64,000 nucleotides of DNA from Anaerolineaceae bacterium (lineage in GTDB: Bacteria > Chloroflexota > Anaerolineae > Anaerolineales > Anaerolineaceae), in NCBI GenBank assembly GCA_016841525.1, contig JAENYZ010000002.1:392078-456077 (forward strand), read 5' to 3'. Below are positions 46,929 through 50,887 of the stretch, piece by piece. The position numbers and the translations under genes are program-made. The notes beneath the pieces are model-generated. The model had not been told where the DNA came from, did not search any database, and worked only from the letters and a program-made list of their open reading frames with translations. Positions within the stretch are counted from its first letter, which is position 1, and every line of letters begins with the position of its first letter.

Positions 46929-46957
46929 TTAGATCGCTGTTAACTACTTAGATAAAC

Positions 46958-46994
46958 AACAACCCTTCCTGCTTTTTGGGAAGGGTTGTTTTAT
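46958..46994 (+). terminator. Intrinsic terminator after the acidic secreted gene
   Basis: AACAACCCTTCC (46958-46969) pairs with GGAAGGGTTGTT (46979-46990), followed by TTATT. Very similar in arms to the hairpin at 47415. Confidence 0.88.
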
Positions 46995-47075
46995 TATTCA
47001 GAGATGGAAAACTGCACAAATTAATCGGCGATAATTGGTTTTATTGTCAAGAAAATGTCGTGATTCATCAATAGG

Positions 47076-47359
47076 AATTATTTTGATTAATTCAATCGGC
47101 CTGAAGGCCTCACTCCATTTGATTTTATTGTTCTGTTTAATAAGTGTATTTTCAATGATATTTTTCTCAAAATCTATTTGTAGTGAGGGACTTTCGCCCC
47201 GAACCTGCTTGGAGTGAGGGGCTTTAGCCCGAAACACTTTAATTATTCAAAGTTTTTCATGGCAGGGTTGAGGTTTGTTGTCATTAAAATGTCGTTTATA
47301 ATCATGAAAATTATTTTGATTAATTCAATCAGCCTGAAGGCCTCACTCCATTTGATTTT
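47076..47359. repeat. 51-bp direct repeat pair with tandem palindromes between
   Basis: 47076-47126 and 47309-47359 are the same 51 bp with one mismatch, each containing GCCTGAAGGC; similarity extends weakly upstream (TTGTCA..AAAATGTCG). Between them, 47184-47232, are two GTGAGGG-CTTT-CCC units. No gene is credible in 46995-47467, so this is a repeat cluster between the secreted-protein gene and the copper operon. Confidence 0.75.
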
Positions 47360-47414
47360 TGTAGTGATTAATTTTTTATTTCAAAAATGTGATTTATTAA
47401 ATCTTTAATAATTG

Positions 47415-47451
47415 AAAACCCTTCCAGCTATTTTGGGAAGGGTTTTATTTT
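47415..47451. terminator. Bidirectional terminator at the end of the copper operon
   Basis: AAAACCCTTCC (47415-47425) pairs with GGAAGGGTTTT (47436-47446), with T-rich flanks on both strands. It ends the leftward csoR-copZ-copA-rhodanese transcript, whose last stop is at 47468. Confidence 0.78.
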
Positions 47452-47467
47452 TAATCTCTAATCAGGT

Positions 47468-47926
47468 TCACGGTTCGACCGGATAACCTGCTGCAAGCCA
47501 GGCCTCAAAACCGCCGACAATTGGGTTTGCCCTGCTGATGCCGTTTTGGAGCATGATCAGCGCCGCACGGGCGCTTGTGTTTTCAGCTGGTCAGGTGCAG
47601 TAGGTAATGTACCACGTATCGGGATCTAACTCACCCACACGATCTTCAACCTGGTCAATGGGCAGGCTGATCGCCCCTGCGACACGCTGTGCTTGAAAGT
47701 TTGCTTCACTGCGGGTATCCACAATCACGGCTTCACCTGCCATCATTGCCTTGTAAGCTTCTTCAGCAGTCACCCTGGGGATATCGTCCTGGTTGGTAAT
47801 TTCACCAGGGTTTTCGATCCGTGATTGCCTGATATTGTCCGCAAGGATCAAGCCGACAATGCTTACCAGGATGACGCCTGCTAACAGGATGATGGGCATT
47901 AATGCCTGGTTCTTTTTTCTTTTCAT
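47468..47926 (-). CDS. Membrane-anchored rhodanese-like protein, probable selenoprotein
   Basis: 152 residues if TGA (47593-47591) is read as selenocysteine. One N-terminal membrane helix (LMPIILLAGVILVSIVGLILA), then a rhodanese domain: IPRVTAEEAYKAMMAGEAVIVDTRSEANFQ, AISLPIDQVEDRV, WYITYCTU, then PAENTSARAALIMLQNGISRANPIVGGFEAWLAAGYPVEP. The part after the TGA is the normal rhodanese end in the same frame, and Cys stands there in relatives as I recall them (YCTCP). A SECIS-like hairpin follows the TGA. Fourth gene after copA, so it may serve redox or sulfur handling tied to copper. Sec machinery is not in the window. Confidence 0.82.
47559..47593 (-). promoter_or_regulatory. Bacterial SECIS-like hairpin after the in-frame TGA
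   Basis: On the coding strand, AGCGCC and GGCGCU form a 6-bp GC stem with apical loop CGUGC. The loop begins 21 nt after the UGA and has G at its second position, followed by U, within the spacing and loop rules known for bacterial SECIS elements. Confidence 0.65.
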
Positions 47927-50611: not shown

Positions 50612-50887
50612 TTAAACTCTATTGGCAGTTTCAAATACTTCGGTGATCTCGTTCAGTACACGCTGACGATCGGCGGGGTCATCCCCCTGGGCAACAGTTA
50701 AAAGACATGTGTTCAGGTGACCATCCAGAATTTGCGTGCTGATTTTATTCAAGGCTGATTGAACAGCCTGGATTTGACGAATGACATCAATGCAATACTG
50801 GTCTTCGTCAAGCATGCGCTGGATGCCCCTGATATGACCTTCAACGGTTTTTAATCGCTGGATGCTGTCTTTGTGATCGTGTACCAT
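50612..50887 (-). CDS. csoR: CsoR-type copper-sensing repressor
   Basis: 91 residues, all helical (DUF156). The Cu(I) ligands Cys-His-Cys are present: QYCIDVIRQIQ, DGHLNTCLLTV. Represses its own operon until Cu(I) binds. First gene of csoR-copZ-copA-rhodanese. Confidence 0.92.
   Translation of the reverse strand: MVHDHKDSIQRLKTVEGHIRGIQRMLDEDQYCIDVIRQIQAVQSALNKISTQILDGHLNTCLLTVAQGDDPADRQRVLNEITEVFETANRV

Follow-up and report, generated by a model that had tools for sequence, protein, structure and literature searches.

An in-frame TGA that almost certainly encodes selenocysteine in a rhodanese gene behind a copper operon of an Anaerolineaceae bacterium

Is a TGA that interrupts a rhodanese reading frame, and is followed in the same frame by the remainder of the domain, a stop or a selenocysteine (Sec) codon? 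The question is raised by a gene on the minus strand of the window, i.e., the entire stretch of 64,000 nucleotides from an Anaerolineaceae bacterium that was analysed here. The position of the gene behind a set of copper-export genes raises a second one, that of its function. Our joint reading, to which we assign a probability of roughly 0.85, is that of a membrane-anchored Sec rhodanese, decoded with the aid of a hairpin, equipped with a C-x-U redox pair and, within its genus, expressed in connection with copper. As judged by comparison of sequences, the frame is almost certainly a true bacterial selenoprotein gene, easily mis-annotated, in which UGA-112 is read as Sec.

The frame is one gene. 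Its ATG lies at 47926-47924; 111 codons precede the in-frame TGA, which is codon 112 in the context ...WYITYCT-TGA-PAENTSARAA..., and 40 more codons lead to the end of the rhodanese domain (...GGFEAWLAAGYPVEP) and to the terminal stop. If TGA is translated as U, the product starts with MKRKKNQ, proceeds through a hydrophobic stretch and enters a rhodanese domain with the sequence WYITYCTUPAENTSARAA. It scores 44.9 bits against the Pfam model Rhodanese (PF00581; cut-off 22.2) and thus belongs to the superfamily. The original prediction had described this frame by its coordinates, its motif, the 40 codons beyond the TGA and a proper stop, all of which can be read on the minus strand. It had further warned that a standard annotation would truncate the gene; indeed, the plain reading lists just 47591..47926 and cuts the gene off before its active-site selenium. 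The features are compiled in Table 1.

Table 1. Features of the Sec rhodanese locus and its upstream neighbours (positions within the window)
Feature	Position	Strand	Basis or remark
Sec-containing rhodanese gene (almost certain), 152 aa, Sec at 112	47468..47926	-	translation with TGA=U; Pfam Rhodanese; same-codon TGA in orthologues
In-frame TGA (codon 112), almost certainly a selenocysteine codon, within C-T-U-P	47591..47593	-	TGA in the 70 strongest family matches
Cys110 codon, partner in C-x-U; TGA in U-x-U relatives	47597..47599	-	U-x-U in 17/231 distinct TGA loci
SECIS hairpin of the bacterial type (stem of 6 bp, loop CGUGC)	47559..47575	-	folding, covariation, bSECIS criteria
Probable N-terminal membrane helix, residues 9-38, presumed N-in/C-out	47813..47902	-	predicted structure and hydrophobic sequence
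Terminal stop codon TGA	47468..47470	-	reading of the sequence
copA-type Cu(I) P-type ATPase, 806 aa	47959..50379	-	GMTC..C and CPC motifs; upstream neighbour conserved within the genus
copZ-like copper chaperone with uncertain start codon	50389..50634	-	7/7 genus loci with enough flank
csoR-type repressor, Cys32-His57-Cys61	50612..50887	-	7/7 genus loci with enough flank

The simplest alternative is that the TGA is a real stop and the gene a truncated or decaying rhodanese. It would agree with the plain reading, yet it is extremely improbable in view of the relatives. A search with the window protein in 147 genomes of the family yielded matches in 117. Codon 112 is TGA in all of the 70 strongest matches (E up to 7.7e-22) and also in one weaker match, in G134. 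Were it an ordinary stop, one would expect TAA or TAG in part of the matches, and the terminal stops do vary in this way: in 68 distinct loci they are TAA (37), TAG (20) and TGA (10), one being lost to a contig end. The 68 loci were obtained by collapsing 85 rows that had been kept for their TGA, so they are not independent evidence for the TGA itself. Three matches (G019, G077 and G087) are too short to include codon 112 because the contig stops first; four weaker ones, fetched for comparison (L090, L105, L106 and L107), are ordinary rhodaneses of the CRSGNRS type without TGA; L104 gave no match in the comparison of the TGA column. In 67 of the 68 loci (exception: L067), no fewer than 90 open codons precede the TGA; 39-43 codons follow it, except in L031, which runs into a contig end. 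The original prediction had also counted on homologues with Cys in place of the TGA. Such homologues do exist, since three of the 15 TGA-less loci fetched (L283, L284 and L294) read YCACP; among close homologues no Cys was found in this column.

A real stop is equally hard to reconcile with the behaviour of the codons that follow it. In 13 of the 14 genus loci (L031 was left out), pN/pS for codons 13-38 after the UGA is 0.285. The corresponding control, taken downstream of the gene, is saturated, and the distribution of differences over the three codon positions is the safer statement: 0.26/0.17/0.57 after the UGA against 0.33/0.33/0.34 beyond the gene end. By these measures the codons downstream of the TGA are under purifying selection. 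A conserved UGA followed by conserved coding sequence, which is one of the criteria for a bacterial selenoprotein, is what was found. The same arrangement recurs in several phyla and is accompanied by a covarying hairpin (see below), which a real stop would not predict either.

A selenoprotein gene makes sense in a genome that can decode it. The source genome (3.2 Mb, 97.3% complete) was checked, as originally proposed, for selA, selB, selC and selD, and all four exceeded the curated cut-offs: selA with 517.7 bits, selB with 345.6 bits, tRNA-Sec (selC) with 69.3 bits, which ARAGORN also calls SeC, and selD twice, with 401.1 and 331.7 bits. The two selD genes deserve a remark of their own. One of them (L110, G000:C9:527786-528712) has an in-frame TGA in CSGUASK and is probably itself a Sec-containing SelD. 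The other (L109, G000:C1:144610-145533 and upstream) lies within a 750-codon frame, the N-terminal half of which resembles, by eye, a NifS-type cysteine desulfurase; it is a candidate desulfurase-SelD fusion.

In the family as a whole, 62 of the 147 genomes were scored by reading as carriers of the TGA form. Either tRNA-Sec or selB surpassed the cut-off in 59 of these 62 genomes versus 61 of the 85 others (Fisher p 2e-4), whereby tRNA-Sec matches barely above the cut-off (e.g., G017, 48.7 bits) may be other tRNAs. Three carriers had neither above the cut-off. One is G053, a genome that is 77% complete. In the other two, G125 and G138, the gene is broken by a TAG in frame upstream of the TGA (18 codons before it in the G125 copy, L067), as is to be expected if the gene no longer works without Sec decoding. 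These two copies appear to have decayed after loss of the Sec machinery, unless the contigs were mis-binned. With L067, one of the 68 distinct loci thus fits the idea of a decaying gene.

A hairpin of 6 bp with a CGUGC loop 21 nt after the TGA had been likened to bacterial SECIS elements. It is indeed present (AGCGCC-CGUGC-GGCGCU): six pairs enclose five loop bases with -10.6 kcal/mol for the hairpin alone, and the distance from the UGA is 15 nt to the stem and 21 nt to the apical loop, to which the claim thus referred. The criteria of the bSECIS model, as reproduced in the review PMC13188914, are a loop of 3-9 nt, a stem of 4-16 bp, a G in loop positions 1-2, 16-37 nt from the UGA and an MFE <= -7.5; the window hairpin, with a loop of 5, a stem of 6, a loop starting with CG, 21 nt and -10.6 kcal/mol, falls within all these limits. 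Folding of the single sequence, in contrast, had to be discarded as proof of a SECIS: the z-scores were -2.11 (21 nt), -0.97 (45 nt) and +0.38 (61 nt), i.e., stability is not significant in the wider context. That the hairpin alone is not unusually stable in 61 nt is a further point on the side of a real stop. Comparative counts were used instead.

In the 68 distinct loci the hairpin region aligns without gaps. Over the six-pair stem, 90.7% of the cells are paired versus 84.8% in shuffles, 24 cells are changed on both sides versus 4.8, and the covariation score is 0.276 versus 0.157; none of 500 shuffles reached any of these values, and slid controls scored at most 0.106. Two cruder counts were not significant in the same loci, namely the number of pairs with both sides changed (4, reached by 52/500 shuffles) and that of further pair types (7, reached by 128/500). 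The loop-closing pair joins the third positions of two Ala codons and is C-G in 56 loci, U-A in 11 and C-A in one; when the 990 position pairs are ordered by mutual information, this wobble pair (21:27) comes first and the next one (C-G 55, U-A 6, U-G 5, A-U 1, C-A 1) 25th. High values are also seen for position pairs outside the hairpin and presumably reflect relatedness. Two stem pairs are invariant, the outermost one is unformed in 33 of the 68 loci, and the loop reads CGUGC in 45 and GGUGC in 13. A SECIS so highly conserved, and covarying at purely synonymous sites, provides a clean marker for finding more genes of this kind. The covariation and the published model together uphold the hairpin as a SECIS, and with the Sec machinery and the conserved TGA they bear out the selenocysteine rhodanese that had been predicted. 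Decoding of UGA-112 as Sec is strongly supported, with all the certainty that comparative evidence can give.

How widespread is this protein, and is it new? A scan of public genomes for the pattern YC[TA]-TGA-PxE yielded at least 118 matches in at least 117 stretches. All 118 matches listed proved by eye to be rhodanese frames with an in-frame TGA; three of them (L162, L163 and L198) break off where the locus or contig stops, and in L164 the frame is interrupted early by an upstream stop of the G125 type. According to the record titles, the phyla include Acidobacteriota, Chloroflexota, Thermodesulfobacteriota, Myxococcota, Rokuibacteriota, Nitrospirota and Thermomicrobiota, with one from Pseudomonadota. 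At the level of the class, 83 of 396 genomes gave a match at 1e-12, most matches having the TGA. Fusions also occur. Among nine long frames chosen for inspection, the Sec rhodanese domain forms the C-terminal part of Na+/H+ exchangers in six (L207, L230, L297, L299, L301 and L151), of VTT/DedA proteins in two (L136 and L195) and of a trypsin-like protease in one (L137).

A CxU rhodanese as such is not new. The review PMC13188914, in its account of rhodanese-like selenoproteins, equates form 3 (CxU) with NF041203 and credits it to Zhang and Gladyshev 2005. This model, rhodanese_LYCAU, shares with the window protein the rhodanese domain and the C-x-U (here C110-T-U112), and its members, e.g., that of Desulfofustis (L204, 171.7 bits), have the same in-frame TGA. 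It is also the best NCBIfam match of the window protein, yet with 71.8 bits against a cut-off of 115 membership had to be rejected; the motif is YCTU instead of LYCAU, and the copper operon is a further difference. The cut-off was passed, with 166-175 bits, by five proteins of the LYCAU type (Desulfobacterota and Nitrospirota) and missed by five others (Acidobacteriota and Chloroflexota, one of them with U-x-U), which scored 78-104 bits. In the phylum, not one genome out of 400 reached 115, which means that a selenoprotein common there would go unnamed by NF041203. The kind is thus known, and the window protein is, by its sequence, part of a large YCTU group that spans several phyla and lies outside this model. 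Forms 1, 2 and 4 of the same review likewise have Sec in a rhodanese-like domain, but with UxxS/UxxG motifs, and are set apart in its table. TsoB (NF045694), a rhodanese/DsbD fusion with UxxxxU, is listed there as rhodanese-related with two Sec residues; the window protein reaches 21.1 bits (cut-off 805), and the U-x-U spacing of its relatives differs. The thiosulfate sulfurtransferases GlpE and PspE have the same family and fold but no Sec, and the window protein is far below their cut-offs (GlpE: 39.6 vs 102).

A check for U-x-U proteins was prompted by two relatives in which the Cys codon, too, is TGA. The 269 TGA rows, collapsed to 231 distinct loci, comprise 214 CxU and 17 UxU loci; the latter were found by following two-TGA matches, so 17/231 is not a frequency. 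The 17 are L302-L315, L317, L328 and L329; most of them read UTUP, two UAUP and one UTUA. In all 17, two UGAs one codon apart precede a single SECIS hairpin, in which 5-6 of the six pairs are kept. The rhodanese tail is retained, though in L329 it is cut short at the locus end, and in L317, the same gene as L028, Tyr is replaced by Ile beside the first TGA, which may be a sequence error. A scan of 400 genomes of the phylum for the UxU pattern gave nine matches, six of which are such rhodaneses; the backward control gave one. tRNA-Sec is above the cut-off in 13 of the 17 UxU genomes, one of which (G472) passes it only weakly. On a FastTree tree, from which L067 and L162 were left out as too short, the state changed between CxU and UxU at least seven times, which is a rough minimum. 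Our literature search found no published description of a UxU rhodanese, and the term 'UxU' does not occur in the main text of PMC13188914. These relatives offer a natural test of two close UGA codons sharing one SECIS.

The predicted structure (mean pLDDT 94.1) shows one helix, residues 9-38, followed by the rhodanese domain. A strand (105-109) leads into Cys110-Thr111-Sec112 and from there into a helix (113-127). The nearest solved folds are rhodanese domains, 3tp9 in the first place, and also 6mxv and 1gmx. The hydrophobic helix after MKRKKNQ suggests a location at the membrane with the N-terminus inside and the C-terminus outside, so that the rhodanese is probably anchored by this single helix with its domain outside. 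In an alignment of 58 relatives, the rows of which were chosen for TGA with Sec written as C (L262 and L297 were dropped from 59 random rows), Cys110, Sec112, Glu115, Ser118, Ala119 and Gly129 are invariant; Asp70, Arg72, Glu115, Ser118 and Trp143 are invariant or nearly so. The classical rhodanese cysteine aligns with Cys110 in 3tp9, 3nhv and 1yt8, but with Sec112 in 6mxv. Sec112 and Cys110 may be seen as a pair for redox or sulfur-transfer chemistry, probably outside the membrane.

A sequence of events can be proposed from these data. UGA-112 would be decoded by SelB and tRNA-Sec at the hairpin 21 nt downstream. In the model, Sec112 would team up with Cys110; this C-x-U pair lies within the active-site loop, directly behind the strand and at the start of the helix. 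One chalcogen may accept sulfane sulfur or an oxidised thiol, while the other would resolve the intermediate as a selenenylsulfide. Being placed behind csoR-copZ-copA in the genus, the gene is probably expressed when Cu(I) is exported, and the rhodanese would then protect or reset thiols at the membrane face.

The copper context had been part of the original prediction, and the three genes were indeed found upstream on the same strand, the stop of copA lying 32 nt before the ATG of the rhodanese. The spacing of Cys32-His57-Cys61 in the repressor matches that of the residues which bind Cu(I) in CsoR of M. tuberculosis. An operon of the persulfide-sensing CstR type was considered instead and appears unlikely, given these residues and the CPC of the ATPase, which point to copper. 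A promoter scan gave five sites, no more than the 5.2 of shuffles.

Within the genus the linkage to copper stood up; in the rest of the family it did not. The search covered 16 genomes of the genus. The TGA region is complete in 14 of them, whereas G019 has part of the gene at the end of a contig and G020 gave only weak matches. copA is directly upstream in 14/14 of the complete loci, and copZ and csoR are present in all seven with enough flank. Among the other 54 family loci, copA was directly upstream in none, and two had weak, distant matches to P-type ATPases. A general role in copper metabolism is therefore rejected, and a copper-specific function, if there is one, is not general. Other groups of the family have other neighbours, e.g., a run of genes with protein starts resembling those of gcvH-gcvPA-gcvPB. 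In 175 wider loci, of which several repeat family loci and many have short flanks, 11 contain a member of the P-type ATPase cluster, which lies directly upstream in a few (L114, L115, L140 and L173); two of the 11 (L152 and L198) match contigs of the window's genus in length.

This distribution would suit a Sec rhodanese that merely hitch-hikes behind copA and performs sulfane-sulfur or thiol chemistry of a general kind, without relation to copper, as would the diverse fusion partners of the domain. We rate this a strong contender that falls somewhat short of even odds: the linkage persists in every complete genus locus although the rhodaneses diverge down to about 59% identity, and the few P-type ATPases just upstream in other lineages also speak against it. 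Alternatively, the C-x-U loop could be a Cu(I)-binding site and the protein an extracytoplasmic copper acceptor or buffer, not a catalyst. Two-cysteine Cu(I) sites are usual in copper-export operons, and the operon position and a soft Cys/Sec pair close to the membrane would fit. This is unlikely, however, as the rhodanese core is kept beyond the loop (the five residues from Asp70 to Trp143 listed above) and most family loci are devoid of a copper context. We thus prefer the anchored Sec rhodanese with a C-x-U redox pair. That its Sec thiol acts beside Cu(I) export was the idea of the original prediction and may be correct for the genus; our literature search found no published description that pairs a Sec rhodanese with copA. 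Should the link to copper prove true, selenium would be tied to metal export at the cell surface.

More speculatively, the YCTU proteins might be regarded as a widespread selenoprotein family that lacks a name and whose two active-site chalcogens can both be selenium, U-x-U being decoded from one hairpin to give a diselenide-capable loop, and the Cys/Sec form of the genus serving copper export as an extracytoplasmic enzyme of thiol repair or Cu(I) handling. We consider this extended view possible, at odds of about one in three.

Finally, in the intergenic region after the rhodanese gene (window positions 46950-47450), CCCTTCC...GGAAGGG forms two hairpins that resemble each other, and a CCTGAAGGCCTCACTCCA stretch is repeated.
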